64,000 nt of DNA, taken from assembly GCF_964204645.1 (NCBI RefSeq), contig NC_134028.1:26944153-27008152 (forward strand), given 5' to 3'. The notes below the pieces were generated by a model. The model was not told the DNA's origin. It worked only from the letters and a program-made list of their open reading frames with translations, and did no database searches. The DNA is from Tubulanus polymorphus (lineage: Eukaryota; Nemertea; Palaeonemertea; Tubulaniformes; Tubulanidae). Position numbers and translations under genes: made by a program. Positions 1,122-53,937 of this stretch are shown here, one piece after another (the stretch's first letter is position 1; each line of letters opens with the position of its first letter).

Positions 1122-4100
1122 ATGCATTTATTTTCAATCTGCGCAATAATTACTGTTATATCATCTAGTCACTGGATCACACTAACTACGACGAGTAAGT
1201 TACCGATATTTAGTCATGAGTTGCTGTTATGTGTTTGATCTTGACAACTCTGAGCCTGGTTTCCCATTTTGTGAGTTTGATGTAGCTCACAGCTCCACGG
1301 AAGTTTGTATAACTCGTTGTAACTTTGATAAAACGCTGGGTTGCATTCAACTTTGAGAGTTTAATATAACTGTTTGGCTAATTCCACAGTTTAGGGCTAT
1401 GAGTCGACGGGTTGAAGGGTTAAAACATTGATTAACTTAATTAAGACTTTATTTCCAACTTATTAACTAGGACCTGTTAAACTATTGGCTCCGATTAACA
1501 GTTGGTAAACTTAGAAGTCAAATTCTGACTCAGAAAACAGTGAAACTAGGTCCTAGTTATCAGCTAACACTGTTGTAAGCGTCACCAGCCCCGGATCTAA
1601 TTGTGTGAGTAAATTTCACTGTTGTTTTGTTATGGATTTTAGCAAATACCTGCGTGGATAATGTAGCTCAGAAGTCTGATTGTCCAGAGTCGGCTGCCAG
1701 AGGTGACTGCGACACAGATACGACGCACGTACCTACTAATTGTCCACTATCCTGCGCTGAATCGTGCCGATGTCCGAGTAAGTTCTAAATCGGACATTTA
1801 TAGATGCTTCATCAATAAAAGGTTTCTCTTATGACTTTCAATGAAATCCGTTTAGGTAACGTAGTCGGAGGTCAAGCTCAAGATAATAATGACTGTAATT
1901 GTGCGCATTACATACACGATGGCAAACTAGAGAATGGAGAAAGCTGGATCAATAGTTATTGTCCATCATCAGTATATCGCAGGCTAAGTACGTAGGTCGG
2001 TTTTATATTAGCTGTTGTCACATACAACGATTCGCGTATGTTCTACTTTCTCTCTACTATTCGACAGTATTTCCCTGTCACAATCGACCTATGCTGTCTT
2101 GAAACTGACCTTTACTCGCCGTACAGCGTCCCTGACAATCGTAACCGATGTACACCTGCTTTTCTAGATTAAAATCATGACTTACATCTGAACCCATTCT
2201 AGGTTCACCTGTAATCATGATAGGGGTTGCAAAATAGGCCTACAGTCTGATGACTGAAATGCTAAAAGATATTATAACATGACAAATTCTGGTTTGCTTA
2301 AACAAGAACATTCAATTTTTCGATATACTTAATTTTCTATGTCCTATTTCTAAAAATACTCGAGAACGCAGCCGTGGTATGACGTAGATATCATATTTTG
2401 TAGATATGCCATGCCCTGATCCACCGGCAATACCGTTGACTAATTACACCACGACTTTCGGCAATAAATGGTTATCTGAAGTTATCTATAAATGTCAACC
2501 AATAGCAGAAACAAACCTTACCGCAAACGATAACGGCAGACGTATTTGTTTGCGCAATCAGACCTGGCTATTGCAGAAAGACCACGGAGAAATCAATTGT
2601 TACCGTAAGCATTCATTTGTTTGTTTGTTTGTTTGTTTGTTTGTTTGTTTGTTTGTTTGTTTGTTTGTTTGTTTGTTTGTTTGTTTGTTTGTTTGTTTGT
2701 TTGTTTGTTTGTTTGTTTGTTTGTTTGTTTGTTTGTTTGTTTGTTTGTTTGTTTGTTTGTTTGTTTGTTTGTATTGTTCTGTGTCGTTTCCCAATTTTTA
2801 AGACCTATTGGATTGTTCATCTAAACTTGGCGATTGGCTTAATTAACTACCGGGTATTTGATGATCATCTTTCTATATTCAACATATCATACATGTCTGT
2901 ATTGCACCTCGACACTGACGAGGACTGCGGCTAATGCGCGTCATCATTTTTAGTTAAAACCTGCACAGACGCTCCGGATACCATCGACAATGCCACGTGG
3001 TCTGTGAGCGTACCAATCAACGAACGTGGTTACGAACACGGGACCGTCTTAACCTACACGTGCTTACCCGGATACGAAGTCATATCCGGTGACGTCACTA
3101 GAACGTGTGAAGCTAACGCGACGACTGTGATGTGGACTGATTGGACGCCACCTGTATGCGTGAGTACGTACTAAATAGAAAGATAAGATTATAGTATTAA
3201 TCGATGAATTGTAGTCGGGAATTAGGATGATATTTTTGTACGGCGATTTAGAAAAGGATTGCGGTGCAGCCTCGAGTATAGCTCACGGTACAGTCGACTT
3301 CGATATGACCACCTACGATGAAATAGCCACATATACCTGCGACGAAGGCTACATTTTCGAAAATGAAAACGACACAAAAAGATGCGACGAAAATGGAAAA
3401 TGGATCCCGGATTTAGTTTGTCTCGGTAATTATTCACACCGGATACTGTTAAATGATTATCTTATGGCCGCGGAATGTACAAGAAATTCTAAAGAAAATA
3501 ATTGATTTTTGTCACATGATGTTCAGATCATATAACCATCATAATGATCATTAAAATGATAGATTTGTTTGTGTTCGATTATAATTTATTTCTAAATTCA
3601 ATATACAATTCATCTTTTCGATACATCGTCGATATGTAATGATCGTCCAAGCTAAAAACTGTATTTACATACGAGCTATCAGTTTACATATCAATAGAAT
3701 TATGATTTATGTCGTATCAGGTGTCGATTGTGGGGAACCGCTGTCGTTAGAGTTTGCGACGTTTACCTCGCTATCGACCAGATACCCAGCCGTGGCCACC
3801 TATACATGTCAAAGTGGTTACAAGTTGAAGAACAGCGCCAACGATAAATTATCCTGCGCCGAAAATGGCACGTGGGAAGGAGAGAAACCGGTTTGTGAAG
3901 GTGAGAGAATTAATCATTCAACGTTTTGAAAGGCGCCGGTATGTGTTACGACTAAGTAGCGATATTAAAATAACGATCACTCACCGGGTGTCGAACCCTA
4001 TATTTGTGTCATATACATTCGTGATTAAGTCGTTCGTATATGCGTAACACGATACTAGATATAGGTTTTAAAAACGGGTTGAAAAAAGAACAAAATCAAA

Positions 4101-6579: not shown

Positions 6580-9500
6580 TTAAATAGCGATACTACTTGG
6601 AACCCGCTCTGGTAGTAAATAAACGTACGGCACTTCTCTAGTTTTATTCCGTTCGTGTATCGTGGCGCTTATTTGTTTTACGGCTTTACTGAATTTCTTC
6701 ATCAAATCCCTCGGTTCCAGATCGGTGAAATAATCATTCGGATATTCACCCAGAAATATCTGAAATAAAAAACGAATTTGAGTTATTTCTCGACTTGAGA
6801 ACAAGCTCTTTAGATAGATGATGAGACAAATTACCTCTTCCGAACTGTATTGCGATAGCGGATAAACAGCGGCTAATGCATTAGCACTGAGCAGCCAATT
6901 AGGTAGTGATTCTATAATTAGATCCATATTGACCACGCCTTTCTCTGTTGGTGGAGGTCGCAGCATGGTCAGTGGATAGTTGGGTACGAATGCCATATAG
7001 TCCATTTGATTGAAGTTGACGGCTGCGTGTTGACACGATGCTGAGAATATCAACATTGTTATCCACTCGTCTAGTAACCTCTTCGTTTCAAATCTTTCAG
7101 AAAACAAATCATTATTAAATCATAAAGCTACAAATTCATTTCATTACTCAAAAGTTCCCAATAAAGTAATTTAAGATGCGTCAGTCTATTTATTAATCGT
7201 TACTGAAAATACTTGACTGACAGTTGAGAATTCTTTAAATTCCAATCTAACAACTCAAGACATGTCGGAACTCTTCAGCTTTATCCAATCTAACAACTTA
7301 CTTAGAGGCGTTTACCAATTTTGGTTCTATATAGCCAAACAAAAAACCTAATGCCAGTGCACGATCATATTTCTATAGCGAAACTTTTAACTTAAGACCT
7401 GTCAGTCTTAGCTGATTTTGGTTCTAGAGGCAATGTAACTACCATAACCTGTCATTTAAGACCATTTCTGGACATTCTGTTGTTAGAATACAAACCGTTC
7501 TGGGATTCCATGGTCCTCATGGCCTTCGTATTGACGGAATCCATTTTCGCGAAGGTCAGCCAGCCAGGCCTGTATCTCTTCATCGGCGACTACATCATTA
7601 TCTGATTTATAAAACAATGACGTCATCTCGACGACGAATGCGTGAATGGCGTCCCAGATCAGGTAGCCATCTTCCCGGAAGTGGTAAAACGGAAGTTTCT
7701 CGGGGTCGTCGACTCCGCGATTTTTCATATCTTGTTTGAGGAAAAGTTCGCTGATGTTAAATCGTGAATACAGTTTTGATATATACTGAATGTGGCCACC
7801 TCCTATAATCAATAAATACATCTTTAATTCAATGATATGAATAAACTGAGTTTTACACAAGAATCTAATCCGAAAGTTCACCAAACAAAAACCATAACGC
7901 CAACATCTATTATCAATGAATTTCATACTTTTCGAATTATCACTACTTCTGCGGGACGTTTTACTTCCATCTAAATCACTAGTTATCTCGGACTAGAGTG
8001 TTTGATTAATTAATGCGCGATTTATAGTTCCTTGTTGCCAGTTTAAAGATGTGTTAATGGACAATACTCAAATAACAAAAAAAAATATTCTTATTTTTTC
8101 CTGATCCCTTCTGTTTTGACACGCCTTTTACCAAAAGATGCTTTTGGAAAATTTTATTCCACCCCTTCGCTCTTCTATTTTTTCTTAGAAATATCCATGC
8201 TCTAAGTAACAACAACAAAAGGCCTCAAAGAGATATTTCTAAGAGAACTCACCGCCGATCGCCATTGTATTATCGACGACCTTCCCTTCACCTGTAAGCG
8301 CAACTCGACCAATCGTATTGATAGCGATCGTGTGACGCATGTGTGGAATCAACATCTTGAATACTGGATGCGCAGACGGTAACTGTCTCATAGTCGCTAC
8401 TGCTATAGCTTCTATTATGAAATGAGTCCTGGATAAATGATAGTACATCTGATGTATCTGACTATCGGCGCATTTCACGTGTATCTTAGCCAGAGTCCAG
8501 TCATCCTGGGAATCAGAGGGAAGGAATACGGGGTTGTTCGGTCCTGGTGTTTGCTGTAGTTGTATCGCTATCGGTACTAAGTGTCCTGATTTCCTCACGT
8601 ACAGTAACGCGATAGGTTCGGCCACGTATCGAGTCTCACCGGACACGTTATAACGCGGAATACCGGTCAGATCACTGTAGTCCAGAATATACACGTGACC
8701 ATCCTGAAATTACATTCATCGTATTTACATATCATCCACGAGATTGGCGTAAACAGATTGCTCATAGCCATTATCTATTTGGCTAAGAAATTGACAGCTT
8801 GTTTGTCTTTTCTGCTAAGCTCAAAAATCGACCTGGCCAGCCACCTATTTACCCTGTATTTTATTTAAAATCATGATCAAGCTAACAATAACAAACCTGC
8901 CAGTAATAGAAATGAACTGATTTCAAATCTTAAGTGAACCGCCGATTATGAGAAAGAAAGAAAGGTATCATTTTTCCATGTATGAGGCGGCCCATATTGG
9001 ATCAAGCGAAGTTTTGATCAGATTTCTGAACAAATATTTTTAGATAGTCAAAAATGGACGCTTTAACATGAAACAGGTGACGAATCAAAAATGTCAAATA
9101 TCAAAATTTCGTCGATGACACAAAAAAAGTCATTCTCACCTTGATTTCTTCATCAAGAGATTTACCTCGATCCAGAAATGGTTTCAGCATACCATCATCT
9201 ACAGCGAGTTTATTCGGTAGTTCCGTGCATCGTCGCAGGTGATGCGGGTTCGTTCCGGTCAGAAAATGGCGTCCATATTCCGCGTCATCCCAGAAATGAT
9301 CGTAGAAATAATCGTAGACGCCTTCCGATTTTTGACAGATGTTCGCGAAATCTCGATAGTCTTTCAGCGACGTGAATCCGTGCGACATCAACGCGCCGAC
9401 CGTCCTGTATCTTAATCTTGCTTGTCCAAATAGTAGAAAGAAATCTCGTGATTTCTCGTCGTTGAATTGTACATCTCGCGGGAGTTCGTTGTGTTTGTCG

Positions 9501-12500
9501 TGGTCGATAGATGACGACAGCCCGGGTAGATGGCGCCACGGGAACTGTTCACGGCGCCATTGAACTTCAAGTTTTCGGAAATTTCGTAAATGCGCGTCTT
9601 TTTCCTGGTAGCACAGTGACGCTATTGAAAATTACAAGTTAAGAATCGTTATATTCTATACACGTGCTGGTAGCCGAAGTCTTCGTAACTGTCACGTAAC
9701 CACATCATAGCCACCCAGCTGGCTATATGCCCACATCATAGCCATATTCAGATAGCTATGTCCACTTCATAGCCACTCAGCTGGCTATGTCCACATTATA
9801 GCCATACTCAGATAGCTACGGCAAGATCATAGCCATCTAAACATACCAGATATCGAAACTATGACTTACCGTCTCCTTTCTGAAATATGGCGTTTGTTCT
9901 GAGCCAACTGTAACAGGGGAATTCAACTGACTTCTTACGGCTACAGTCGAACACTATGACGTAATCGATAGCGTGGTCATCTTGACCACGTCCTCGTAAA
10001 CTGACCTCTATAGCCCTGACTTGACCAACGTCTCGTTCATTCGACACCTTCAAGAATTAAGATTACTATTATATTTGGCGAACCTACGAAACACACATTT
10101 ATTTTCGAGCATCCATAACTTTTTATTTCTGGTCCAGGCCATCCTCCGCGTTTCGTTCGATATATTATATTCCTTACTCATACCAGGTCTACTGACTGGT
10201 TCTATCTATATCCACACCTCGTGGTCTCCTATCAGTTGCATCCCATTCCTTACATCTTTTGAGCCACAGGGAAAAATAGGTATAACTTGGGATATGAACA
10301 ATCCACGCAATATCATTGAACCGATCAATTTATATTGAAATACACTATACCGCCACGCGCGTGGCTGTTTCAGAAAAAATGAAACTGAATATCTATTTGT
10401 CGATGTCGTATGGTCGTATCGTCAGGACAGCGTCACGAAAAATCAATTTATTGCGACGAGAAAAAACCGCGGATGGTGTTTAGATCGCGTGAGAATTTCT
10501 AAACTAACAACATCTCAAGTGATATTTACCTTATAAGCATCGACTCGTCCTTTCTTGAAGTCATCGTGGAACGTATGGTCCAGTTTTATAGACTTAGTAA
10601 CAGCCTGCGTACCTAAACAGAAGAACAAGAAAACTAACTTGACAGAAGAGAAATAACGCGAGATCATTGTTAAATGGTATACTTGTATCTTGCATCTGCA
10701 GATGATAACTAATGACTGATACCAATCACATTGGACAATGATTAAGGATTTTAGAGCCCATTCCATGATACTCGAGGCTTTGAATTGATCCATTCACATT
10801 TCAAAAGGACTTCTTTTAAGGACTTCAAGAACTTCTATGAACCCAATTATTGTAATGTTTTAACGGCGTCAAAACAATAGCGTCTAGAAATATAACATGT
10901 TTTATTGATAAAAGTAGATGGTACCGTTGAGCGATATAAAGAAATCCCTATCGGTCCCCGCTGAACCCATATCAGCCGTTTTAACCAGTAAGATATAATC
11001 GGAAATATCGAAATTTCCGTCATCCGTTAAACAGATTCTGGACGTGGCTTGTCGTGATCTCTGGACAGCTGGATAGATCTAGTTTAGAAACAAAAAACAA
11101 TATACGATAAACGACATTCAATATACGACACGCAATACGTGATAATAACAACACATTTTTCAAGGTCGGTTAAAAGTTTGACTCAAGACGTAAAAGTAGT
11201 TCATTTCCAATGGCCTCAAATTTTTAGCTGAGAACAATTTCGTGCTTTTACTCTGAAACATGCGATAGTTTTGATTCAGTTTCTGTAAAGGAAAAGCTTC
11301 ATAAAAAGTAAATCGTTGAATATGATCGAAAATTAATGGTTGACTTACCTTTTCTCGAGCATAAGAAACTGACGTGAACGAAAATACAGAAGCTGGTTTA
11401 TGATAAGTGAGGATTGGCGGCCGGTTAGCCAGATCAAACGTCATCGGTTCGCTAATATCGAGCGGGAGAGGGGTAGTCAGTACGACATCCGCTAGGGGAC
11501 GCCACGGATGGAATTCGGAATTCCATTCTAAACCGACGTTGAAGTAATCATCCGCGTGACCTTCACGGATCTGAATTTGAAGGTCGAGGTCGATCGACCC
11601 GTCTGTTTCAAAGCGTTTGATGAGTTCGTTATTGAGGTAGCTTTCATCGCGGTTCTTGTGTTCATCGCGAACTTTACGATTCCTTCGAATTGAGATGAAA
11701 ATATAGATATATGAGTCGTCATGATGCTATTGTATAACTGTCATGGGAAAGCCCAGCAAGATGTACCAAATCATAGGGGCGATAAATCTTACAAAAATTA
11801 CTTTGTATCCCCGACAAGATAATATCTAGGGGGGGGGGGGCAATGCTTGAAAGGTAGGGTGAGGATAGGCGGACCTGTCCCCCTCCCTCAGCAGGGATTC
11901 GATTCAGATACCATTGCTAGGCTCAGCCACGGCACGAAACCCGACCCGACTAACCCGAACCGGTTTTATGCTACAACAATTTGTGGATTCGTTGAAAATA
12001 CTTTCTTCGAATTTTAAAGCTGAGCTTTGTTTGTTTAAAAGGTTAATACAACATGGACACCGTATTGAGGCCGGTTCACATCCACTACACATACATACCA
12101 CGGTTCTCGTTGATCTTGCTCATCAGTGAGACCCGATTCAACATCGAGATCTTTCGGCACGAATCGGAATCTGACCGTTCTTGTCATTCCATCATTAGCC
12201 TGGTAAGAGTAGGTTGTGTGACAGTGGTAGATCATCTTAGCGAATGAATCAGGAGCTCGTCTGTGACTGTCTACTATAGATCTATACCTTAAACACACAA
12301 CATCTATTCATATCAATATCTCTGACTGATATTGAGTATATCAACGCATTCTTCACAGATACGATTAACATTTTAAAGTCCATTTTCATCACAGTAATGA
12401 AATAATTCATGTACGCGAGTAGTAGAAATACTGAACAGTTATTTGTGGATGCGAGAAAAGAAAAAGAGAACTGTAGATGACGCATTCTCGAGAAAAACAA

Positions 12501-15500
12501 AACTGAACTATTTAATAATCAGGCCACTCGAATGTGATTTAAAGAAGAGAGGTTACATTAGTGGAGTCTCCATTAAAATGTTTGTTTTGCGTCACACTGC
12601 CGAGTCTTTGTTTAAATGTGAACAAATCTAAAATAAAATCCTCTTTTTTCGCAAAAGATAGCTGGAACCCTAGCTCTGGCTCGGTCGAAAGCCGAGCTCA
12701 CTCACAACCCTAACCCTAGGTGGCTCGTTTCCCTAACCCTAACCCTAGGTCACTCGTAACCCTAACCCTAGCAGGATTCGAACCCGCGAACTCCAGTATG
12801 CCAGCCGAGCATGCTAACCACTAGGCCACTGAGCTGTAGTGATTTGACCGGTTTGTAAATATGTCCAGTCCTTGTTGTGACCAGTCAAGTGTGGTCGACA
12901 CTAAAGGTACCCCTCGTATAAAATAAACAATAAACGATGCATATGTAGTGATCGTCGCGTGTGAATAAACCGCGGAAGAGACGATTCCCATCTCAAAATC
13001 TAGACGAAAAGTATCGATGAGTTTTCCACTGATCTATGGCAGGGTTCGAACTTGATCGCATTGATTCGACTGGCTTGAATCTGTATATCAGTAACAGGAT
13101 TGAGCGTCGAGTCGTTTAATCTAACATCGTATAAAGCCTATGAAACTAACGCGAACCTAGTTAACAATTCGCTTTTTCAAATGACCATTATATTATCGAT
13201 ATTTGTATTCTTTTCAAAACACGATTTATGATTAAACGATTTAAGATTAATGAGATGCTATCCATATACGTTTCAGTATAAACACGGGTATGGATTATAT
13301 CGTTAATTACGTATGCGCACCAGACAGACAGACAGACAGTGGTTTTATCTATTTTAGGTTCATGTGGCAAGCTGTCACCGTATATAATCAAGAGTAGATG
13401 GCGAACTATTTACGAGTCGAAATATAGAAATAAATATCTACATATAACAAATCTCTTTTTATTGTATAATCGATGAATTTTCTAACCGAGTTTGAACTGA
13501 AGTCGTTTACTGTGCGACTGACATTTTTGTTCACAATATTAACAAGTTACAGTTCTCTCTCCGTGGAATCTTATGAATCGGTCGTGTTCAGGTCATAATA
13601 CGGAAATAGTCATATATTTTCAGTAGCAACGCATTAGAAATGTATGATTTTTACCTGAATGGATATGCAAGGCAATAGTTCTTCATTTCTTCTTCATTTT
13701 CGACCGGAAATGCATCGGCAAAATCACCGAACTCGCGCAGACAGATGAGTGAGTTAGTGGAACCAGTAGAACAGATCAGATCAAAAGAGCTGACGTCATC
13801 ACTGACACCATCAGTGAACCTGATCGTAAATCCGCGCGAGCATTTAACAGCATCGTGTTCAGGACTATCCGACGAGAAACGACCTCTTAATTGAAATATC
13901 TTACCCTATAAACATCAAACAATACAATATTCATTTACATTCATTATTCATCTTGATAAAAATGTCTAAAGGTTTCCTTTTACTGATCGAGATGGCGGGA
14001 ACCCGGGGGTTACTGATCGAGATGGCGGGAACCCGGGGGTTACTGATCGAGATGGCGGGAACCCGGGGGTTACTGATCGAGATGGCGGGAACCCGGGGGT
14101 TACTGATCGAGATGGCGGGAACCCGGGGGTTACTGATCGAGATGGCGGGAACCCGGGGGTTACTGATCGAGATGGCGGGAACCCGGGGGTTACTGATCGA
14201 GATGGCGGGAACCCGGGGGTTACTGATCGAGATGGCGGGAACCCGGGGGTTACTGATCGAGATGGCGGGAACCCGGGGGTTACTGATCGAGATGGCGGGA
14301 ACCCGGGGGGTTACTGATCGAGATGGCGGGAACCCGGGGGTTACTGATCGAGATGGCGGGAACCCGGGGGTTACTGATCGAGATGGCGGGAACCCGGGGG
14401 TTACTGATCGAGATGGCGGGAACCCGGGGGTTACTGATCGAGATGGCGGGAACCCGGGGGTTACTGATCGAGATGGCGGGAACCCCAGGGGTTACTGATC
14501 GAGATGGCGGGAACCCGGGGGTTACTGATCGAGATGGCGGGAACCCGGGGGTTACTGATCGAGATGGCGGGAACCGGGGGGTTACTGATCGAGATGGCGG
14601 GAACCCGGGGGTTACTGATCGAGATGGCGGGAACCCGGGGGTTACTGATCGAGATGGCGGGAACCCGGGGGTTACTGATCGAGATGGCGGGAACCCGGGG
14701 GTTACTGATCGAGATGGCGGGAACCCGGGGGTTACTGATAGAGATGGTGATTTGAATGAAACAGATAAATTCGCGTATTCGGAATATGAAAGCCGGTGAT
14801 TGTTAATATAACATTATACTATTTCCTTTATTGATAGATATCGATATTGTTTTGTAAAGACGGCGGTGACACGTGTTTATAAGCCGCAACACGACCTCGA
14901 TCAATTCTTGTCACTTTACATTTCTACAAGTGACAAGAAAAAAACGTATTTCTATAGTTTGATTTATTAAATCAATCACAATCAGAATTCAGAGAAATCT
15001 ACACAAACATGACGTGAAAAATACGACACAAAATCACATTAAAATATTGAAATGGAATGGAATTTTTGCTAAAGTAGTTAATGCATTTCTGTCTAAACCC
15101 GATGCACTCGGCAAAACGGTTGTTTCATCAAAACACAAAACACGTTTTTTCATAAAACGTTTTGAGTAAAAGTTTTACTCGCAAACGATGAAAACGTTCA
15201 GCGCACGAGGCATAAAAACGATCTTTCTTTACCGTGTGCGTAAGGGCTAAACCACTGTCCTGTAGTGATGTCAGAATTGATTGACGAGTTATAGGAAGCT
15301 ACAAGTTTATTGCATACATTTACTCCGCTAAAATTGTGTTTAAAAGTGATGCTAGAATACTATTATGATATACATGTATTTTATATTTCCGTGCCTTGTT
15401 AGCTGTCACCCTGATTTGACTGAAGTCCAATGCATCAACTCCATAAACATAGGACTAGTTTTCTAAGCCTTAGCTCGAATATATAAATGAGCGCTCATCG

Positions 15501-17162
15501 AAACCTACCTCCGTGAAAAAATCGTCTTCAGGAAGTTCTGGATGTTTTCGAATCGTCACGAATCCAGAAACGCCGATTCCTGATCGATGAACGGGTCGCC
15601 GACCCGAGGCAGCTATTGCCGAAAATGCGACCTTCCATTTATAGGATTCGAACCATAAATTCAAACCACTTCCGAAACCGGGTTTTTGAAACTGAAATAT
15701 TATCATAAATCAACGATAAAGGATCAAATTTGGACGCGAAGAAAAAATCGATGCACTTCAGTTTTGATGGGTAAAACGTGAAAGATGAATATCGTATATT
15801 TGAGAGTTCCCTGTTTCTGAAGCATCCTACTTTACGTGCTTCGCTATTGTTTGCGTAAAACTAATTTCTACTCGACTAAACGCACAGAAAATATGTGACA
15901 ACTATTTTTTAGATTGCGAAAAATATTCTAAAAAAAAAATCGATTTGTTCGCCGTTAAAAAGTACCATGTGTTACAATGATAAACAATAGTCGTCAGTTT
16001 GGGTTCGGTTTTTTTTAATATAGTATTTAATTAAGTGAAATGTATACGGAAATCATCATTAAAAACGAGCGAACTGTAGCTTTTTGTGAATTTCAACCGG
16101 TAGCTCGACTTAAGGACAATACTGAGGCGTTTCATGCAGAAGAAAGGTTTCCTCCTTGGAGCTCCAGTTAAAATAATGATTATTATCATACTATAATCAT
16201 TATTTATTATTATTACAGTTGTATCAAATAATCATGAATACACGATAGGAAGAACACAGCATAGACTCGGCCTATAGCAGTCCGTGTGTATTCGGTAAAC
16301 CGTTGAAGGCGGTCGAATAATAAAAAAAGATTTTCTTCTGAAAAGCAAAGCATTTTATAATGTGTAAACAATCTGATTCTGCAGGTCTGGACGCTGCCGC
16401 TATAAGTAGAGTGTCAACTGTATCAAAATGTTCTGATTCAATCGATTTCGAATAAACTCCTTAAAAAGCTCTTCGGTATGTACGTAAGTTTGCAAGCATT
16501 TGGCTGAACAAACAACCTGTCGTTATTTCTATCATAAAGTCTAAACAAAACCCTATATACTATGTATATATATATGCACGTAACAGTAGGTTTTTGTTCA
16601 ATCCTGGAAAGAGATGCGAAAAAATCGATCGAATTATTTTGGTAGATTTAATCCGATCAAAATGACCTTTTGAATAATTGCGTTTTCGCTATTGCGGATA
16701 CTCGGGTCATGAACTTTATCATTATGACTAATGGAAGTCGTTCTGTCAAATGAATCCCAGTTGATTCAAAATAAACGAGTTGATTGTTAATTGTAACTCA
16801 TATATTGGGAAGTGTACCCGAGTGTATCCCCGAACAACAAGACTCTCTCCAAAATAAATCAAAGCTAGGGAAAACATGGAAACACGGAATGAAACATATT
16901 TGACTTGGAAACAAATCCCAAAACCATTTTTTCTAATAAACGCCCACGATACGGAGAAATTCTCGGAAACATGTTTCTGTTTCTTCCTGTTTCCCTACGT
17001 CATGTGTGTTTGACATGTTTCCGTGTTTCGTGTGCGTTTGACATAAACTCGTACCTTAAACTGTGTTTCAGATTTCAGTTTGAAATCCTCGTCGCCATTG
17101 ATTTCTCTATAAAACTCGTCAGCTCTGTTGATCCACGACGAATCGCTGCCATTCGATGACAT
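6580..17162 (-). CDS. Catalase-related allene oxide synthase-type / lipoxygenase fusion enzyme
   Basis: Exons in coding order: 17162-17055, 15691-15509, 13905-13655, 12281-12095, 11726-11349, 11078-10925, 10612-10530, 10047-9870, 9621-9140, 8703-8253, 7802-7496, 7078-6835, 6759-6580. All phases join, giving 1061 residues. There is no signal peptide, so it is probably cytosolic. Residues 1 to about 375 are a catalase-related haem domain: distal His71 in RRPVHRSGIG, proximal Tyr371 in REKIYPAVQR. Residues about 390-505 are a PLAT domain (ILLVKTADMGSAGTDRDFF; IKLDHTFHDDF). Residues about 510-1061 are a lipoxygenase with iron ligands His752, His757, His938, Asn942 and the C-terminal Ile1061. Gly800 (NTIGR) sits at the position linked to R-stereospecificity. 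Expected role by homology with the coral fusion: the C-terminal half makes a fatty-acid hydroperoxide and the N-terminal half converts it (allene oxide or lyase products). Ser143 and Val70 replace distal-pocket Asn and Thr of the coral enzyme. The exact substrate is inferred, not shown. Confidence 0.93.
9687..9840. repeat. Short intronic tandem duplication
   Basis: A unit of about 60 bp containing CATAGCCAC/TCAGCTGGCTATG and CATATTCAGATAGCTA is repeated about two and a half times in the intron between exons 8 and 9 of the fusion gene. Confidence 0.7.
11878..11965. mobile_element. MITE-like element, end fragment
   Basis: The segment has CAGCAGGGATTCGA followed by CCACGGCACGAAACCC, the end signature of the element copies at 19340 and 22484, but I do not see the other end. 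It is a truncated copy inside an intron of the fusion gene, next to a poly(G) run at 11831. Confidence 0.5.
12705..12770. repeat. Interstitial telomere-type repeats
   Basis: Three short clusters of CCCTAACCCTA, separated by GGTGGCTCGTTT- and GGTCACTCGTAA-like spacers, lie in the intron between exons 3 and 4 of the fusion gene. The motif matches the common animal telomere repeat. Confidence 0.75.
12771..12838 (-). mobile_element. tRNA-derived SINE head
   Basis: On the minus strand this reads with an A-box-like TGGCCTAGTGGTTAGCATG and a B box GGTTCGAATCC at tRNA-like spacing. It abuts the telomere-type repeats. The acceptor stem does not pair well and there is no clear tRNA cloverleaf, so I call it a SINE remnant rather than a functional tRNA. 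Confidence 0.6.
13974..14748. repeat. 30-bp minisatellite, about 26 copies
   Basis: An almost perfect array of a GC-rich 30-bp unit (TTACTGATCGAGATGGCGGG plus AACCCGGGGG) in the 1.6-kb intron between exons 2 and 3 of the fusion gene. A few one-base indels in the G run shift frame between blocks. The near identity of copies indicates recent expansion. The open frames over it are artefacts. Confidence 0.97.
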
Positions 17163-20432: not shown

Positions 20433-23400
20433 TCATTGTAATTTGTTCGAAGAAACGTCAAGTTGAAGACGATTGTAACTGTCTTTATAGAATATCATGA
20501 TACATATAGCCAATATCAGACTGACAGGTATGGACCAGGTTAACCAATGTACACCTACAATAAATAATATACATGAAGAAACTTATAGAGTAACTTAAGA
20601 TATGCGTCATTACTTTATTTGCATTGCAGTGAAATGGCAACCTAGTAGGATCCAGTTCTCTAGGTGGAAACAGAGGAAATGAACTGAATAAACTAAGAAC
20701 TGGTGGAACTCGGATTTCTTCTAACGTTACCAGTTTCATAGTTCCAATCTCAACACGCTGTGGAACTTGTTCAACAAGAACATTAGTGTCTGATGTACCA
20801 CAGTGGGTTACACTAGGATCGTAGAGCAAAGGAGATCACTGTGGATACAACCACTGCCAGGACTTAACTGGGTGAATGGAACTTGGTGCAGCATGTTTAT
20901 CACTAATACCTTGATTATTATCGAACTTACCTATACTGGGTATCCATAATAGGAATAGTATTATCGAAGCGAGGAAATTGACGAGCAGAACTAAAAGACC
21001 CGTAGCGACACTTTCAGCTACCGGATAAACGGTTTCACAGGTCATGTCTAGAAACAACGGGATACAACCGTTCTGTAAAGCTGTGCCCATAATCACTGAT
21101 ATGAATAGTAAAACTGAAAAATATAGATTTGAATTAATTGCTTACATTCATGCGGGTATTAATCTGATATCCATCCGCACGCAGACACAAACTGCAACCT
21201 AGACCCTGCACCCCTTCAGACATTAAATCTGTTGTCTAAACCTTGCAACCCTTTAGACTATATCCGCCGACAGTATCAAATATTACAGAATCTGATCGAA
21301 AACCGATCGTCTGTCTGGACCAAAGATGTCCTCACTTAATAAATCGTTGCTTTTTGTCATAGGTTAGACACGATCGACCGTCGCACGAACACTCTGAGGT
21401 TAACAGATGGGAGATTGCAGTACCCTAAAACGATCACCAGTTATCCCAATGAACGATGATAATTAAACTCTAATTGAACACTTACCGACACTAGGTTCAA
21501 CAACTGAAGACGCCATTAAAGCGTAATGAGTAAAGAATATAGACGCCGCACCGTAGACTGTTATAATCATTATCTTCATGTGTCCCAGAAACCGATCACT
21601 AACTCTATAGCAAAAAAACATGATGAACGTTATTTTTAGATTTTCCCCGATCTCTACTGTGAGCGAGGTCTTACTTACAATCCAGCTATAATTCCAAATA
21701 CGCAACCGGCTTGTATTGCACCGAAGCCCAACCAACCCGCTTCAATCTATAAGAAAATAAGGTTGTAGAACGTGAATCTCGATAAAACTTATCATCACAA
21801 AAATGAACGTTCCATCCACAGGAGGCCATCGGTATAATACTATATCCGCGAGATGTCGCACACGCCACATGCTTCCATCGTACCTGACTAATCGCAAATG
21901 GTTCAAGAGTCAGCTCTAAAACGTTTCCCCAAGCCAGGTTTACCGCATTAGTAAATGCAAATGGTAATACCACCAACCACATGTTATAATTACTGGAAAA
22001 AAATAATTAAAACGATTTGAATTGTAATTTCTCTAGAAATCTCTGAAGGCAAATCATTTGGTGGTGGTAATTATCCCAGGTAAAAGACTTTGAGGTGCTA
22101 AGTTTAGCCAATAATTACTTACGTTAATATATCTTTGACACCCTGAGTGAAGCTTTCGCGTTCCTTTGACGCTGAGACACTCGGAGGATGAGACGGTTTC
22201 GACGGAAAGTGAAATAAAGTCATCATAAATATCACACAAGACAAAGAGAATGCTGAAACAGAAACACAAGTATTGCTAGTTCATTGACGTGTGGAAAAGT
22301 GGGCTTTGACGGGGAGAGATATCTCGCGACCGCAACCTACACGGAAATTTTGAGTGTTACAATTTGTGAAAGTGCTATTTCGTAATTTCTTCAGCACCGT
22401 GGAAAAGGCGACTTTTCAGATGAGTAGAAAATAATATATCACAGATCAGAGCCCAGTTCTCCACATCTGACCTCTGCGGGAAATCAAACCTGATCGCATC
22501 GAGACAGCAACGGCCCTAAGCCCCAGTACGCAACTACATGCGCAGCTTATAGATGATATCGTAATTAGCCAATGAGAAATCCTGTTTTATTTTAGCCGGG
22601 GCAAATTGCCTCGAGCGATTATACAACATACAATCTGATTGGGGCCGCGAGTCTTCTTGCGGCAAACCTGCGCATATAACTGCGCACTCGGTCTATTGCG
22701 GTAGGGTTTCGTGCCGTGGCTGAGTGTAGCGATAACATCAGGTTCGAATTCCAGCCGAGAGAGGATGAATTCCACGAGTCAGGAAGTGATCAACTACTGA
22801 ATACTTACTGACATACATCAGATTCATGATACCATATTTCTGATCTTCATATATCGACGCGAATACTGAACAGAATGATAAAAGTGTGAAACGAGTATTC
22901 ATCAACAGCTTTTAAACGAAAAAGATCATCGTATGCGAAATGTTTCAGTTGAGACTTACCTTCCTTTTGACTCCCAGAAGAGATGTTCACAAGGCTTTAA
23001 CGAGAACGAGAAAATTGCGATAAAACATTTGATAAAATCTGGATCCAGTTCCACAGTTGTCACTTCAGATTGTCTCAAAACTTTTATATCTATCAGCCAG
23101 AAAGGAATATAAACCTGGTCACCCGCAGTAGATGTTTCTTAAGTGTCCCCGGGCAAGATACTTATCCTCGTTGCCTCTTTCCACCCACGAGTGAATGAGT
23201 ATCTGCTCGGTCGGGGGTTACTTCTCTCCACGGTGAGATGACTGATAAATGGTTAGAGTTACAGGTGGGGGGGGGGGGGGTTATGATTGGAAAGCGCCGT
23301 TGAACATTGTAGCACATTGTAACACAGAGAAAAGGGTGCAAAAGAAATCAGAATACTATTTTTATATTATTACGCGTAGATTCATTTGGTTGAAGTGTTA

Positions 23401-26400
23401 AATCAATCCATGCATACCCGTCTATTCTTTCACTGGATCTTTTATCCAAACCAACTATCAACGGTCCTGTAAAATAGTTAAACATCGATCTAATTTGTTT
23501 GACGTCATCGATGGAATTCTAATTTAAGCATTTATTGTACCTTATTTTCATAAAAATAAAATGTTCATCCAGGGCGTCATAAAAGCTAACAAGCATAAAT
23601 ACATCGCGTGCGGGTAATAATAGTATAAAATACTGAATCTATTATGTTTGTCTTTTTGGAATTAATTGCAACAGGTTGACTTAATTGCGCGCCGTCAACA
23701 GCGAGTCAAATTAATCTAAATATATAAATTTTGATACGGGCGACTGCTATATACAGTTGCAGTCGTTTGACCTTGGCGAATTGGAAGGAATTAGGTTTTA
23801 ACAGCCTGACGGTTGTTCTGCTGGTGCTCTGTACTTCCATACATTTATAAGTATCGATTTGTAGACTAGACAATCCACGTCCTCCATACATTTAAACTCT
23901 ATCCAATTTTTGAGTGTTCACACTTCACACATATGTTCAGTATTCGCCTGAGGGGACATGACATTTCTTACAACTGACAAACACCAAACATCAGGTATTT
24001 AAAGGTAGAATAGAATATTCCCTTCTTTTCTTACTTCTTCATGCCTAACTGACCGATAATCTACTCACTCAGTGAGTAGATTATTAGTAGCCCCCCCCCC
24101 CTACCTCAAACCTGAGTTCAAAACGTCGTGCATTTCTATTTCAATTCTTGATGAAATTCGATTTAAATCTTTCAATGAATTTTGTATATAGTGGGGTTTT
24201 AAATCTATTATTAGGCATTTAAAATGACCTTGGAGTAATTTTAAAGGAGTACTCCAAAAATCGAGAGACTTCCAAAGAATTATCAGCTGAAGGGGTGGCT
24301 CCGAGATGATACCACGCTATACGTACCGAGGAGAAATCCTAGTCCTAGCCCGACGTAAAGTACGACGGATGATATAGCTGTGGCAGTCGTCCGTTCATCA
24401 GGTGGAAACCAAGTGCTCGATAACACAGTAGGTCCTATCATCACAGCAGGCCCGGCTAGACCGTTTAATACACCACAAACATGTATCAAACTACCGGAAA
24501 TATATCATCAAATGAATAAATTACAAAGAATATATGGAGTTGATTTCCAGACTAATGATTCCGTTAATACTACTCACCATGTGGCGATTTTCGGATCGGA
24601 ACTGATGCAACGAATTCCAGTTCCGGCCATAATGAGGAAATTTGCTAAAAGCATCGAAATTCTTAAACCTGTATTTGAAATAAAATAGCATCATCATAAC
24701 CGTGGTTTAACTAGAAACATGTAGTCGAAAACTGCAGGATCCAGTTCAACAGTTGTGGATTCAGTTCATTTCCAATGCTGTGATCAAGATGGCCACATTT
24801 CGGCTTATCTACAATTCCCCGATTTGACCACGTTACAGCAAAAAAATTCCTTTGAGAGAATCAGAGGACGATTAGAGAAATGTCTTGGTTTTGGAATGAC
24901 ACAATCTATTTATCATTCACGAATCACGTATTGATAAAGAAACGTGTTGTCAATTATAACACATCCGAAGATTCCCCCTTTTCGTTAATAATTAGTACAT
25001 TTATAAAGTGCTGTAATTCCATGTCCAGACGAAGTTCATAATCACTCCTCTGTCAAACTAAAGCACGGAAAAGTACTTTTTGAGGTAAGACTTGAATTGG
25101 ACAAGCGACAACATATCCGGATCCGTTTGATGCGATTCAATGAATTTATTCCAAATATTAACAGTTTACTTTGCAAAATTTGTTCAATTCCCTGATTTGT
25201 TCCCGATTTGTCTTATTCCCTTAATTGTCCATGTTCTCCACGACAGTGGCGCCACCCTGTTAACCGATGGAACTGGATCCAACTAACTAACGTGCGTATT
25301 TACAAACCTTTTACTTCAAGCAGCCACGAGAAAGGCACTGTTGCGATTACAGCCATTATACAGGGCCAGTTCGACAACAGCGCGATGTCCCAGGATTTAA
25401 ACTCGAAAACGATATCAGCCGTTTTAGCTATCGGGGCCCAGGTATTCCAGACATTTCCCTGCATGATAGCTGACAGAGAGAATACTAATAGAATATACCA
25501 TCGTTCTCTACTAGTCCGTACACTGTCCTCCTAAAACGAGAAAACTAACGATTACAGCAATATTAACACATGGTATTTCTGTGATATTATTCGCCATTCT
25601 CGTGAGAGATTATCAACAACCCGGGGATACCCCCTGTGATAGGTATATCATGATATGATTGAGATTAAAACATGTTTGGATTATATGATAATCTCTACAA
25701 TCCTGCAGGGAAATATCTGCGTGTGTCTCAATGATGTATATGATAATACGTCGAAAAATAACTTAGATATATATGAGTCTTGATTTTTAACGATACGACA
25801 AAACAATGTTCAACTTGAAATCCGCACGAAATCGAAAGTTCAAGTCGTTCTTTTAATCCAATTCGAAATTAGGTTCCTACCGTAAAAATCAAGCTATAGC
25901 CATTATAATCCGGCTGTATATCTACACCTGTGGAAAAACTCATATCTCCTCATATAATCAGCAGGCGAGTTATGTCTATAGCGCACTACTATTTGGTAAT
26001 ATCGAGTAACGTGTATATACATGTGTACAGTGAACGTCCTATAACTACGTGTATTTCAATGTCATTGTGAGCCATTGATTTGTCATAAAACCTGTTTTCG
26101 TGTCTTGGACGCTTTCCTTATGCGGTTTAGATGCTTTAGAGGCTTTTCAGAAAAAATGTGTCATATAGTTATAATACACTGGGTCGACTCGATCGTCTCT
26201 CGCCGGACTTATCGCGAGCCCCGGTCGTAACTGATTTTCTTACTCCAAATTATCATGAATCTATACAGATGCCATTTTCATTTCTTGGCGCTCTTGTCGA
26301 AGTTTGGCCCAGATTCGCCCCTGGTATATGAGTGATCCGATTGGGAAATCGAGCTGCATATTCTTAAGAACGACTTCTTCACAAAATAAATTCTCAAAAG

Positions 26401-31815: not shown

Positions 31816-34800
31816 ATGATACAAATGATGGGTGTTTCTTGGCTTCGTTTTCTGATATATTTGACTGTATATGGTCGAATTCGAGGTGAGTTTGTGAACA
31901 CTTTTGCCCCGAATACCCGTGTTTTCTGTAAAAAAGTTCCTTTTTCATGAACTAATACATGTATTTGAACATCTATATGTATCGTGATGATAGGTGAAAT
32001 CGAATCCTGGGAATCGGAAAGTAAACTACTGAAAAAGTTGTTTCCTGCTGACAGTATGATGCCGTTTATTCGCCCACATGTTAACCCTGATGAACCGGTT
32101 GAAGTGCGACTATCTGCCACACTACAGAACATCGTTGAAGTGGTAAGCATTATTATTCATGTACTTGAGGATATTTTGCGAATAAACAGCGTGAAAAATC
32201 ACGAACAGACACGAAGCCTACCAAACACGCTTTTTTCATCTCCTAACTGTAGCTTTGAGTCGGTTGCTTTACTCGATTTTAGTGGAAAGAGCTGTCAGAG
32301 AAAACCTCGTTTGTCGCAACCGACACTAGTAGGAATCGTGGCTGATTCTGGTCGAATGAAGAAACAAAATCTGACACTCAATCGCCACCACGCGACCACG
32401 TTTCGTTATAACCCGGTTATTTTCGTTTTAGCTTCGCATCAGGGGTGGCTTGAAGGGGTGGCTACTAAGAGAGTCCTTGAACCTGAGTGCCTTCGTGTCA
32501 AGAAAAATTTGTCATGATTTCATTTCATTTTTGACCTTTACCACTCGGCATCTGCACCTCCTTAATCCATAAACGTCGGAGCTGCACAGGCAGGTCCGAT
32601 ATCACGCACATCTTCAACAAAGAAAATCAGTATTTCTTATAAAATTTAAGAAACGAAAGTGATAAGGAATTATACTTTCTTTTCAAGAATGTTTGGAAGT
32701 ATCTTTTTGAGCTCAAATATTTCTGGATAAACGTTGATTTCATTTTTTTTGTAATGACAGGATGAAACTGAATCTGTTTTAGGAGCCAATTTGTGGATGG
32801 CTTTAGTAAGTAGAGTATATTACAGAATTTGTTTTTTCCCTATATCACGTATATTCATTATTTGTTCTTTGATTACCGCAGAGATGGAAGGATCATCGTT
32901 TAACATGGGACCCGGAACTGTTTTCCGGTATTGACAAACTAATGTTACCGGCAACACAGATCTGGTTACCAGATATAAGCCTTTATAACAGGTAATAGCA
33001 TGTCTCCTTCACCCTGTAACCCTCACCCTCTCCACCCTCTACTCTCTCCCCTGTCCCCTCCCCGTCCTCCCCTCTCCCCTCTACTCTCTCCCCTGTCCCC
33101 TCCCCGTCCTCCCCTCTCCCCTCTACTCTCTCCCCTGTCCCCTCCCCGTCCCCTCCCCACTCTCCGCCCTCTTCTCTCTCCCCTGTCCCTCCCCGTCCTC
33201 CCCTCTCCCCTCTACTCTCTCCCCTGTCCCCTCCCCCTCCCCACTCCCCGTCCTCCCCTCTACTCTCTCCCCTGTCCCCTCCCCGTCCTCCCCTCTCCCC
33301 TCTACTCTCTCCCCTGTCCCCTCCCCGTCCCCTCCCCACTCTCCGCCCTCTTCTCTCTCCCCTGTCCCTCCCCGTCCTCCCCTCTCCCCTCTACTCTCTC
33401 CCCTGTCCCCTCCCCCTCCCCACTCCCCGTCCTCCCCTCTACTCTCTCCCCTGTCCCCTCCCCGTCCTCCCCTCTCCCCTCTACTCTCTCCCCTGTCCCC
33501 TCCCCGTCCTCCCCTCTACTCTCTCCCCTGTCCCCTCCCCCTCCCCTCCCCACTCTCCGTCCTCTTCTCTCTCCTCTCTCCGGCCTCTACTCTTCCCACT
33601 CACCCTCTCCCTGTTACAATCTCGGCCTCTCCCTCTTTTACTCGTGGTATACATGCATGCTTGTCTCGATTATTTCAGCGCTTTTGAATTGGACTATGTT
33701 CCGCATGGTAAAACACACCTCGTTATCTCGTCGACTGGTGACATTAGTTGGATTCCTCCAATACATGTACGAGCTCTCTGCGTGTTCAATGTGAAATCTT
33801 TTCCCTACGACACAAATACTTGCAACCTGAAGTTTGGTAGTTGGACACATTCTGGGCAAATGGTAAATAACAATATTATAGATAACAGTAAAAAATCTCC
33901 TATTGCGTCAATAAGAGATGACGTCACATATTGAGGCCAACGTGACGTCATCGTTAGTTACACTTAATTTTATTGCTTAATACATCAGAAACAATTTCAT
34001 CATGAGTTCCGGGTTATAGTTTTACGGTAAGCCGAGGAGCCCGAGGGGGCAAGGATCTACTGTTCTTCAGCTATAGTGTCAAACTTTAATCTGATATAGA
34101 ACTTGGACCCGGGACTAAATAATCTATTCCGTGTTTAGATCAATCTGACTTTAGCAAATGAAGTCGTCGACACATCAACTTTCGCGCGACATCCGGTGTT
34201 TGATCTCAAAGAGGCTAAGGCTAAACGTAATGCTGTTCGGTACGAATGCTGTCCAGAAGAGTATATTGATATCGTGTTGAGTCTAACTCTAAGCCGTAGA
34301 TCGTCGATACTGTCTCTGATCTATGTCGCACCTGCTGTATGTTTGGGTTTACTGGTGCCGTTCATATTCCTCATCCAGAGGAAATCGTATATTTTTGGTA
34401 AGTTTTAAAATCGCTGAGGGAAAGCAACAGGACGGCGTGGCTAAAGTGGTACCGGGTCCAGCTTGACGGGCTACAAGTCCAGGCTGAAGAATGATATCTG
34501 AATCTCAGTGAATGCTGTTTTATGTTTACAGGTATCGGTTTGCAGGCATGCCTGCTGATACTACTGTCAATGATTGAAGATGTTTTTCCAGCTTCAGATG
34601 CCCACAGTACACCAATGATAGGTAAGAGCGAGCTGACCTACCATTGAGTAGACGCTTTCTTACTCGGTACCTGAGAAACCACTCGAGTTGGTCCATTGCA
34701 ATAAGATAATCTTCATTTGATCATAAACATTATATCATGAACATAAAAATATAGTTGCATAATACTATACGCAGGCCGATCGAAGCCCGAAGGCAGGTCA

Positions 34801-35840
34801 TGTAGAACTGACAGCTTATAGAAAAAAGATGCAAAAGATAATTGCACTCTTGATAACAATGAATGAGAATAGAGAATTATAGTATCACGGATATGTAGGT
34901 GTAGATCTAAGACGGGGTTCAGAAGAAAGGAAAGACATTTCCCGGATAAAGTAACCACGTCAAAGGCATAGTGGTGTCCCATCCTCGGTGTTAGATACTA
35001 TAGATGCAAATTCCGAAAGGATAAGTTTCCTGCAGGTTTAAACTATCGCTGTCTTGACGAAAAGGGTAACCAAAGTGGGAAGGCAGTGGCCCAGACTCCG
35101 GTGACCAAAATCCGCCCTGCTATGGTGAATTTGACAAATGGAACCTCTACTGTTTCCCTGATTCTACACTGCGATGTACTATAGTCATACTCACAATTCG
35201 TCTCAACTTGTTTATTATTATGTTTCAGCGATTTATTACGCATCTTGTTTTATTGTGGCATCGATTTGTTTGATACTGAAATTCTTGCTCGGCGTTCTAA
35301 GCGACTCACCGATAAGTCCTCCTCCTGGCCTGGCGCGGGTACGTATTATCATTACATTTCACATCAGAGCCAAGACGTCTATGTCCAATCGATTACAGCC
35401 TTAAGGTTCCTCTGCGTGGTCTCCTCAACGATTCTGTAAAAAAGATTTATTCAGTGTCATATTGAATCAAGAAGAAATCAATATCAAATCATATCATATT
35501 GTGTGTATAAGACAAAATAATCTATATGATCTCGCGGTGCACGTAATAAAATGTCCCTTTTCGTTTAATTCATTTGTTTGCATCCAATCTTTGATATGAT
35601 CTATTTTGTATTTTACAGTGTTTCGCAACTTTAGGAAAGCCTTTATGCGTTAATCCGGAAATTCAATACGCAGATGAACAGCCGATCATGGACGAGGGGT
35701 CTTCCCCCAATGACGTGGAGGTCACAAGTCCACCGAAACCAAGCACCACCTGGCGGCCTATCGCTACAATAATGGAACGGATACTGTTTTTGGTATTCCT
35801 CGTGTTGATATTGATTATTACAGTTGGTTACATCCCTTAG
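31816..35840 (+). CDS. Nicotinic acetylcholine receptor-like subunit, alpha type
   Basis: Exons: 31816-31885, 31994-32142, 32761-32805, 32882-32991, 33679-33862, 34139-34397, 34532-34621, 35229-35338, 35619-35840; 412 residues. Signal peptide in exon 1. The ligand domain has loop A WLPDISLYN, a Cys loop of exact canonical spacing (Cys159-Cys173 with FPYD inside), loop B GSWTHSG and the vicinal pair Cys223-Cys224 in YECCPEEYIDI, which defines alpha-type, agonist-binding subunits. M1 is APAVCLGLLVPFIF, M2 begins FGIGLQACLLILLS, M3 is YYASCFIVASICLILKF, and M4 is at the C-terminus, with an M3-M4 loop of only about 60 residues. The 45-bp third exon is a hallmark of the family. M2 lacks the usual GEK at its cytoplasmic end. 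The ligand is inferred from motifs. Confidence 0.92.
32998..33590. repeat. Pyrimidine-rich minisatellite
   Basis: An almost pure C/T array built on CTCTCCCCTGTCCCCTCCCC and related blocks, with a longer period of about 180 bp repeated. It fills the intron between exons 4 and 5 of the first receptor gene. Strand asymmetry is near total (purines on one strand), so triplex or R-loop formation is possible. The open frames across it are artefacts. Confidence 0.95.
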
Positions 35841-36532
35841 AATGTTATAGGGAGATATATATATGTATATGTCGTATGCCTGGTGTATTCAGTATAGGCA
35901 ATGTAACGGAAATTCAAACCGGAATGACAAATCCCTCGCAATGTAGAATAACATAAGAGTGACATGATTACGAATATAATCATATAATTACAAAATAACA
36001 CGACATAAAAATCTCGGGAAAAAAGTATTTTTACAGCATATTCGTTACCACTAACCTAGTTAGGTTCGATGACATTCATGACATCGCCTACTTATTCAAT
36101 GTTATTCTATAATCATATGTAATTTGTTATTCTATATGAAACACTATCATCATCATCAAATATATATATATATATATTACAAATGTATTACATTTAAAAA
36201 CTTAGCGTTTTTTTCTCAGAAAATTCCGTTCGATGGATCTTTGTAAATTAGATTTTGCATTCAATGCCATCGTATGGTATAATCTAACAAGCACTTGGAA
36301 ACAGACTGTTGAAGATGGTGAATTTGCCTGCTGCGAATTTTAGACTCTTGCACCATTTCCACTTATCGATATCTAGTTTCCATATCTAAAAATCACTGTA
36401 AAGTATTAAGTGCTATGTAATTATGATATTTGGAACGTGGCCTAAATTATTGTGAATGGATACTGAAGATTGCGATGCGGTGCGTGTAGCACCTCTTGAA
36501 AAACCTGCTCATTCGTGATTAAATCTTGAACG
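35841..36532. other. Intergenic between the two receptor genes
   Basis: About 0.7 kb of AT-rich sequence with a TA microsatellite at about 36159-36178. I see no gene, and no clear promoter motif for the downstream gene. Confidence 0.6.
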
Positions 36533-46008: not shown

Positions 46009-46365
46009 AAGTGTTGAATATCGATCACAACCATTGCAAAGTGTTTGTTTGTCAATTTCGACTGATACAACACAAATCACGAAACGTTTCATCTGGTTTT
46101 ACACACTGCATACTGATGGATTCGAAAGATCCGTTTGATATTGGGAAAATAAAGTACATCAATGATTTAATACACGCGATTAATAGCATTTTTGTATCTG
46201 AATAGTTTGATTTTATTTCCTCTTGAGAAATCTTCTTGAAAAATACAGAAACCAGGAATGTATTGAAAGCAAGTAGTTCTCATTCCCAGGGTAAAATTGA
46301 TAGCAAAAATGCCCGACTTAATTTTTTCCAAAATACCTGTTGAATTGATGTATGATTTCCCTGGC

Positions 46366-46373
46366 TATAAATA
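46366..46373 (+). promoter_or_regulatory. TATA box of alcohol dehydrogenase copy B
   Basis: TATAAATA lies 70 bp upstream of the copy B start codon, within the short 434-bp spacer after copy A. Position and sequence fit a core promoter. No equally clear box is visible before copies A or C. Confidence 0.5.

Positions 46374-46442: not shown

Positions 46443-48852
<2,410 letters not shown>

Positions 48853-50427: not shown

Positions 50428-53937
<3,510 letters not shown>

Follow-up and report, generated by a model that had tools for sequence, protein, structure and literature searches.

Do animals other than corals possess fusions of a catalase-related haem domain with a lipoxygenase (LOX), and what might such a protein make? 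The question is raised by a gene on the minus strand of the 64,000-nucleotide stretch of DNA analysed here (the window), which at 17162..6580 encodes a predicted haem–PLAT–lipoxygenase protein comparable over its whole length with the allene oxide synthase-lipoxygenase (AOS-LOX) of the coral Plexaura homomalla. Taken as a whole, the evidence is best explained if this gene encodes a working haem–PLAT–LOX fusion enzyme of a lophotrochozoan, homologous to coral AOS-LOX from end to end, a reading from genomic sequence that we consider on balance probable. The available passages of PMC5793058, PMC8124189 and PMC10813956 report catalase-related haem–LOX fusions from anthozoans and from cyanobacteria, and no report of the fusion outside these groups was found in open-licence full text, animal protein databases lying outside the search. 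Excerpts of PMC7098371, PMC12205514 and PMC8028124 mention transcripts of molluscs and mites under the name allene oxide synthase-lipoxygenase; this label may be no more than a best-hit name. Predicted proteins of the same kind could well sit unremarked in databases.

Structure of the fusion gene

The gene starts with an ATG at 17162 and ends with a stop codon at 6582–6580. Its 13 exons are separated by 12 introns, every one of them GT–AG, and join in phase into a coding sequence of 3159 nt, that is 1052 residues plus stop, in place of the 1061 residues given by an earlier reading of the DNA (the sequence-only reading). The coding frame contains only the terminal stop, against 51 and 81 stops in the other two frames. 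A second model, built by spliced alignment with the coral protein alone as guide, likewise gave 13 exons, with boundaries identical to the first except at the outer guide ends and at exon 4/5, where an in-phase alternative (12091/11671 instead of 12099/11682) yields 1051 residues.

The single reading frame runs from the catalase-related haem domain through the PLAT domain into the lipoxygenase. The haem domain begins in exon 1 (17055..17162; N-terminal part, with the start ATG at 17162–17160) and continues in exon 2 (15509..15691), which holds Arg68 at 15598–15596 and the distal Val70–His71 pair at 15592–15587 (coral Thr66–His67). Exon 3 (13655..13905) contributes Arg106, Ser143 and Phe156 (coral R102, N137 and L150), exon 4 (12099..12287) ends at 12091 in the alternative model, and exon 5 (11349..11682; alternative start 11671) carries Arg353 (coral R349). 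Exon 6 (10925..11078) bridges the two halves of the protein and is followed by exon 7 (10530..10612), which is PLAT, and exon 8 (9870..10047), the remainder of that domain. The lipoxygenase occupies exon 9 (9140..9621), exon 10 (8253..8703; iron ligands His743 and His748, and Gly786 at the R/S stereo-control site), exon 11 (7496..7802), exon 12 (6835..7093; iron ligands His929 and Asn933) and exon 13 (6580..6759), whose last residue before the stop is the iron ligand Ile1052. A 30-bp tandem repeat (13980..14747) of 25.5 copies with 98% matches lies in intron 2, which separates exons 2 and 3.

In a phmmer search against PDB, window residues 9–1052 matched residues 2–1066 of coral AOS-LOX (3DY5) in one stretch (E 5e-219), and Pfam placed PLAT at 383–485 and Lipoxygenase at 603–1035, both over cut-off. 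Searched alone against PDB, the haem domain found coral AOS (1U5U, E 7e-53) and, weakly, 3E4W (E 0.0027), deposited as an uncharacterised protein, which we take to be a mycobacterial catalase-related peroxidase. For the haem domain, the Pfam catalase model did not appear among the matches listed to E 10, HMMER filters dropping most matches above 0.1. A global alignment (Biopython) with the coral protein gave 398 identical residues in 1031 (38.6%), distributed as 126/362 in the haem domain, 37/113 in PLAT and 235/556 in LOX. The sequence-only reading had proposed a complete fusion in the coral domain order, to be checked by just such an alignment, and with 13 in-phase exons, the end-to-end 3DY5 match and identity spread over the whole length this part of it stands.

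Compared with the P. homomalla structures (3DY5, 1U5U, 2FNQ), the window protein thus shares the haem–PLAT–LOX order, a similar length (1052 vs 1066), the distal His, the proximal Tyr, the haem arginines, the LOX iron ligands and the Gly of the stereo-control site. It differs in having Val, Ser, Pro and Phe at coral positions 66, 137, 65 and 150, in the loss of Lys60 and Lys107, in lacking 17 residues that form a loop in the coral LOX, and in its probable lophotrochozoan host.

The host genome

The window lies on contig C4 (near 26.95 Mb) of a 267.8-Mb assembly of 77 contigs. A homeodomain search of the assembly, with E limited to 1e-8, returned 24 matches; a group of ten lies at C6:5318228–5634747. 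From signatures in the homeodomains and their flanks we take these ten, from high to low coordinate, to be Hox1, Hox2, Hox3, Hox4, Hox5, Lox5, Antp, Lox4, Lox2 and Post2; at 9 of the 24 loci the pattern used for the reading detected no homeodomain. In the part of PMC5831810 that was available, Lox5, Lox4 and Lox2 are described as lophotrochozoan genes, Lox2 being missing in the nemerteans and flatworms examined there. From the ordered cluster, read with Lox5, Lox4 and Lox2, the host is most likely a lophotrochozoan, with molluscs, annelids and brachiopods as candidate phyla; a COX1 search aimed at the phylum found no match.

Intron 3 of the fusion gene contains a tRNA-like interspersed repeat (12640..12900) that recurs on C1, C4, C5, C7, C9, C10, C54 and C56 (at least 41 matches including its own place, with 40 of 279 candidates scored), which ties the gene to this genome. 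The repeat includes CCCTAA-like units, and many of the copies listed were clustered, several spaced about 11 kb apart; clusters lie on C4 near 27.2-27.3 Mb, on C7 at 10-46 kb and on C10 near 14 Mb of 14.3 Mb, and the family is perhaps subtelomeric.

Two adjoining genes might have been joined in error, and one AATAAA does occur inside intron 6; intron 5, which precedes exon 6, has none. Exon 6 (11078–10925) itself runs from the haem domain, where it encodes the proximal ligand Tyr357 and Arg364, through the linker into the first PLAT strand, so that haem and LOX halves belong to one gene and a transcript ending between them would have to cut this exon. A single exon also crosses the haem/PLAT junction in the models of two further fusions on contigs C5 and C6 (see below). 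We therefore reject a false join as highly improbable. Contamination of the assembly by coral or other DNA is rejected as more improbable still: the gene sits on the long contig C4, its paralogues are on C5 (24.9 Mb) and C6 (23.0 Mb), the latter also carrying the Hox cluster, the intron-3 repeat is found on eight contigs, and identity to the coral protein stands at 38.6%. The Hox cluster, the long contigs and the repeat likewise support a bilaterian host, which the sequence-only reading had raised as a condition, and speak against coral contamination, which it had named as a refutation. The window gene is confirmed, as a prediction from genomic sequence, to be a real, intact and fused single gene.

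Three fusions in one genome

When the window haem domain was used as tblastn query against its own genome (E up to 10), 11 matches were obtained, namely five window exons, four exons on C6, one on C5 and one lone exon. The four C6 haem exons (C6:949534–953217) have LOX exons behind them, as does the weakly matching C5 exon (C5:24167002, E 6.5e-4); the lone haem exon lies at C6:11537034–11537217 (C6:11537023 in the match to the window query). With the C6 haem domain as query (E up to 0.1), the 11 matches fell only into the three fusions and the lone exon and at no further place, and strongly diverged haem copies could be missed, because the C5 copy was detected by single weak exons. Spliced models placed the further fusions at C6:949093 to about 957245 and C5:24165073–24171877 (13 exons). 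Models of a full gene forced onto the lone C6 exon consisted of 37–44 tiny exons strung together by chance and were discarded.

Four introns, at coral coordinates 172, 239, 400 and 651, are common to all three fusions in the same phase. One further intron is shared by the window and C6 genes and two by the window and C5 genes, one of these offset by two residues. In a simulation of random placement (12 vs 12 introns, tolerance 3 columns), at least four shared positions arose in about 0.03% of trials. By these shared positions and phases and the simulation, the three predicted fusions descend from a single fused, intron-bearing ancestor.

The copies differ in what they have retained. The C6 copy keeps the haem residues R64, H67, R102, R349, Y353 and R360, with Ser at 66 and Asn at 137; in its LOX half Lys replaces the ligand Asn947 and a Gly-rich stretch is missing. 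No terminal exon with the C-terminal Ile was seen by eye in the open frames of 3.2 kb downstream, and a missed exon is possible because the far end and part of the middle of the C6 model are poorly modelled. The C5 copy keeps all LOX ligands and lacks H67, R64 and R349, the alignment of a tyrosine to Y353 being unsure. Thus the C6 and C5 copies each seem to have lost the active site of one half, and both sites are intact in the window copy. In the C6 gene, haem exon 2 differs from the lone copy at C6:11.5 Mb in 20 of 180 bases, 14 of them at third positions (nonsynonymous divergence dN 0.049, synonymous divergence dS 0.413): selection held this exon in at least one of the two copies despite the decayed LOX half of the C6 gene.

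Active sites and predicted products

In the window protein the haem residues R68, H71, R106, R353, Y357 and R364 (coral R64, H67, R102, R349, Y353 and R360) and all five LOX iron ligands (H743, H748, H929, N933 and I1052) are kept. Gly786, within INTIGR, occupies the Coffa stereo-control site, placed by motif, and Gly is also found there in the coral 8R-LOX. All three host fusions have Gly at this site. According to a rule that Coffa and Brash reportedly formulated in 2004, Gly at the stereo-control site goes with an R-specific lipoxygenase, and an R-hydroperoxide would be expected as product for this reason. Sections of PMC5793058 note that most coral fusions have Gly as their Coffa determinant, and its stony-coral authors warn that LOX specificity is poorly predicted from sequence. 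The lipoxygenase half looks active and R-specific. The host also has a non-fused lipoxygenase (C10:5572500–5580400), which resembles the fusions in its LOX C-terminal half with iron ligands, as judged by eye, and differs from them in having Ala, by motif, at the stereo site and in showing no haem match at that locus in the haem-domain searches; the model of its N-terminal part is unreliable.

The Thr–His distal pair, which by the title of one paper is said to be the hallmark of catalase-related allene oxide synthase, is replaced by Val70–His71 in the window protein. Lacking this hallmark, the protein should not be classed among the allene oxide synthases; its architecture remains haem–PLAT–LOX, and it may yet function as such a synthase. 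Beside Thr66 -> Val70, the distal haem side shows Asn137 -> Ser143, and K60 and K107, both proposed as substrate-carboxylate anchors in the coral enzyme, are lost. These changes speak against a coral-like working enzyme, as does an observation in the portion of PMC5793058 that was seen, where three stony-coral AOS-LOX proteins, forming their own clade and including predicted isoforms, have T66, R349, H67 or Y353 altered or missing. In excerpts of PMC5617202, T66, H67 and N137 are described as interacting with the hydroperoxide, catalysis as such is said not to depend to any important degree on N137, and the choice of K60 or K107 as carboxylate holder is left undecided, which softens the weight of the changes at N137, K60 and K107.

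The haem domain further shows Ala65 -> Pro and Leu150 -> Phe (coral numbering). Pro at 65 and Phe at 150 are the states of the hydroperoxide lyase (cHPL) of Capnella imbricata cHPL-LOX as given in parts of PMC5617202, and Val at 66 sets the window protein apart from that enzyme. At the 176–177 pair the window has Ser–Ile, as against Asn–Leu in coral AOS (cAOS) and Tyr–Ser in cHPL, the pair being placed by the cAOS motif, with the printed numbering one off, and by description for cHPL. The same source reports that F150L and YS176-177NL push coral cHPL towards AOS, and that the reverse change L150F leaves the products of cAOS unaltered. Evidence on the product type of the haem half is therefore mixed. 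That the window protein makes allene oxide or short-chain aldehydes, the products which the sequence-only reading gave for the coral fusions, finds no support in that form, given the distal Val and Ser and the loss of both lysines.

In the mechanism that we propose, the PLAT domain would probably recruit the enzyme to membranes, as in the coral protein; such a membrane role of PLAT is reported in paper titles. The LOX half, judged by its ligands and the Gly site, would add oxygen to a polyunsaturated C20 fatty acid and so form an R-hydroperoxide, probably the 8R one or one close to it. This would be handed to the tethered haem half, whose ligands are present and which would cleave the O–O bond. 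Because of the Val–His distal pair and the change of the distal Asn to Ser, a product spectrum unlike that of a pure coral AOS is expected. Epoxy alcohol formation, reduction or catalase-like peroxide breakdown, taken jointly, form a substantial possibility short of even chances; allene oxide is a tentative candidate, and chain-cleaved aldehydes are an unlikely one. Most likely, the predicted protein is a self-contained oxylipin synthase.

Relatives in bacteria and origin of the fusion

In GTDB contigs, bacterial relatives were confirmed in two of 104 pattern matches. One is a single frame of about 896 residues in Thiohalocapsa halophila (L055:3863-6589), with catalase-related haem domain and lipoxygenase and no visible PLAT; at the place of the haem-ligating Tyr the alignment puts Asp, with Trp nearby. 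Like the Acaryochloris protein described in the available text of PMC8124189, and like the window protein, it has the haem domain N-terminal to the LOX in one protein. It is unlike the window protein in its Ser–His distal pair, in lacking a Tyr at the Tyr353 place, in its Ala at the stereo site and in the absence of a PLAT-like stretch by eye. The other, from a metagenome bin (L054:3932-5062), is a catalase-related haem domain alone (about 371 aa) with Ser–His and with Trp at the Tyr place, and no lipoxygenase frame was seen in its 8.9-kb locus (4 kb each side). Within the class of Thiohalocapsa, a match at E up to 1e-10 was found in one of 369 genomes, Thiohalocapsa itself. Two scans of viral contigs revealed no relative.

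A LOX tree of about 300 residues separated the three host fusions and coral AOS-LOX from human 5-LOX, 15-LOX-2, the host non-fused LOX and Thiohalocapsa, with support of 87/89 (9 rows) and 84/88 (8 rows) for the animal-fusion branch; in it the C6 row is long and its place unsure, the bacterial row is odd in composition, and coral 11R-LOX was left out. The host loci L027 and L028 gave no complete lipoxygenase; of these, just 146 residues from the end of L027 were included, and one of the trees omits them. In the haem tree without the C5 row, the window and C6 copies join (94/95), and with that row the inner forks among the animal rows are weak (42/24).

Two alternatives to a working fusion inherited from an ancestor shared with corals have to be weighed, one on function and one on history. 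The window protein might work as a lipoxygenase only, its haem half, with Val–His, being catalase-like or idle and leaving the LOX product unprocessed. The C5 paralogue, which has lost haem-site residues and kept its LOX ligands, would suit this idea, and so would T66V, the change by which, to go by the title of Tosha 2006, a single active-site mutation reportedly induces catalase activity in coral cAOS. Catalases typically have Val at the place of T66. This is at odds with PMC5617202, where in the passages seen T66 is said to be identical to the corresponding catalase residue; there the P. homomalla T66V mutant is named in a comparison of catalase activities, and the catalase activity of wild-type C. 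imbricata cAOS, an enzyme with Thr, exceeds that of T66V about 30-fold. Thr or Val alone thus does not decide catalase activity. Neutral decay of the haem half would not predict a window copy in which the distal His and every haem-ligating residue checked (R64, R102, R349, Y353 and R360) survive, and no Pfam catalase match was listed for it. We consider a LOX-only protein rather unlikely and keep the working haem–PLAT–LOX fusion as the preferred explanation.

The fusion could also have arisen twice, the coral and host lineages each joining a haem domain to a PLAT-lipoxygenase, which is compatible with the functional explanation just preferred. Bit scores lean in this direction and count against shared descent: coral AOS-LOX matches the non-fused coral 11R-LOX with 651 bits, more closely than the window LOX matches coral AOS-LOX (550 bits); the scores of the window LOX are 517 bits against human 5-LOX and 456 bits against 11R-LOX. 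Thiohalocapsa also has a haem–LOX join, so that such joining is not unique. Moreover, with 38.3% and 36.5% identity the two bacterial haem domains resemble the coral one as closely as that of the window does (35.8%), the C6 copy being slightly closer (39.4%). Against a double origin stand the LOX branch that unites the animal fusions in both LOX trees, the same domain order with a short linker in coral and host, and an N-terminal region of about 40 columns to which the two bacterial haem domains contribute almost no aligned residues. A second, independent fusion thus appears improbable, and a single animal fusion event is favoured with reasonable confidence. The sequence-only idea of an old gene shared with corals accordingly finds moderate support, drawn from the LOX branch and reduced by the closeness of coral 11R-LOX to coral AOS-LOX.

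Neighbouring features of the window

Next to the 3' end of the fusion gene, a plus-strand gene contains two Sushi repeats over cut-off (3215-3926). Pieces resembling a multi-pass transporter lie at 20839-25530 on the minus strand, with MFS_1 at 24286-24504 slightly below cut-off (32 bits). By eye, two tandem Cys-loop receptor genes (32873-39879, plus strand) are present, a vicinal Cys-Cys occurring in the first only; the Cys-loop ligand-binding domain is over cut-off at 33629-33931 only. They are followed on the same strand by three tandem zinc-dependent alcohol dehydrogenase genes (42423-53700, also by eye), two of which are nearly identical in the coenzyme-binding exon; ADH_N is over cut-off at 43144-43314 and the ADH_zinc_N pieces are under it. 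The minus strand further carries two copies of the PHYHIP C-terminal domain, at 54475-54837 (26.9 bits, cut-off 27) and 63567-63998 (71.4 bits). A 39-bp repeat array at 56756-57611 is open on both strands, in frames of 271 and 302 residues that are probably not genes.

Implications

Tentatively, we suggest that a haem–PLAT–LOX oxylipin synthase was in place by the time of the cnidarian–bilaterian ancestor, and that a lophotrochozoan lineage would have kept it, multiplied it and divided it by job into a copy with both sites and, through Val–His, a new chemistry, a copy with the haem site only and a copy acting as R-LOX only. If true, this division would be a case of subfunctionalisation in which single copies of a two-enzyme fusion give up one of its halves. 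With their complementary losses, the three copies make the role of each half addressable within one animal. A natural Val–His fusion is also a direct test case for the published Thr–His rule. For the mollusc and mite transcripts that bear the AOS-LOX label, the question arises whether the haem half is present. More broadly, an intact bilaterian family would move attention away from the chemistry of corals and towards an oxylipin route of animals that is older and was lost or overlooked elsewhere, and the fusion together with its duplicates hints at an old, overlooked lipid-signal pathway.

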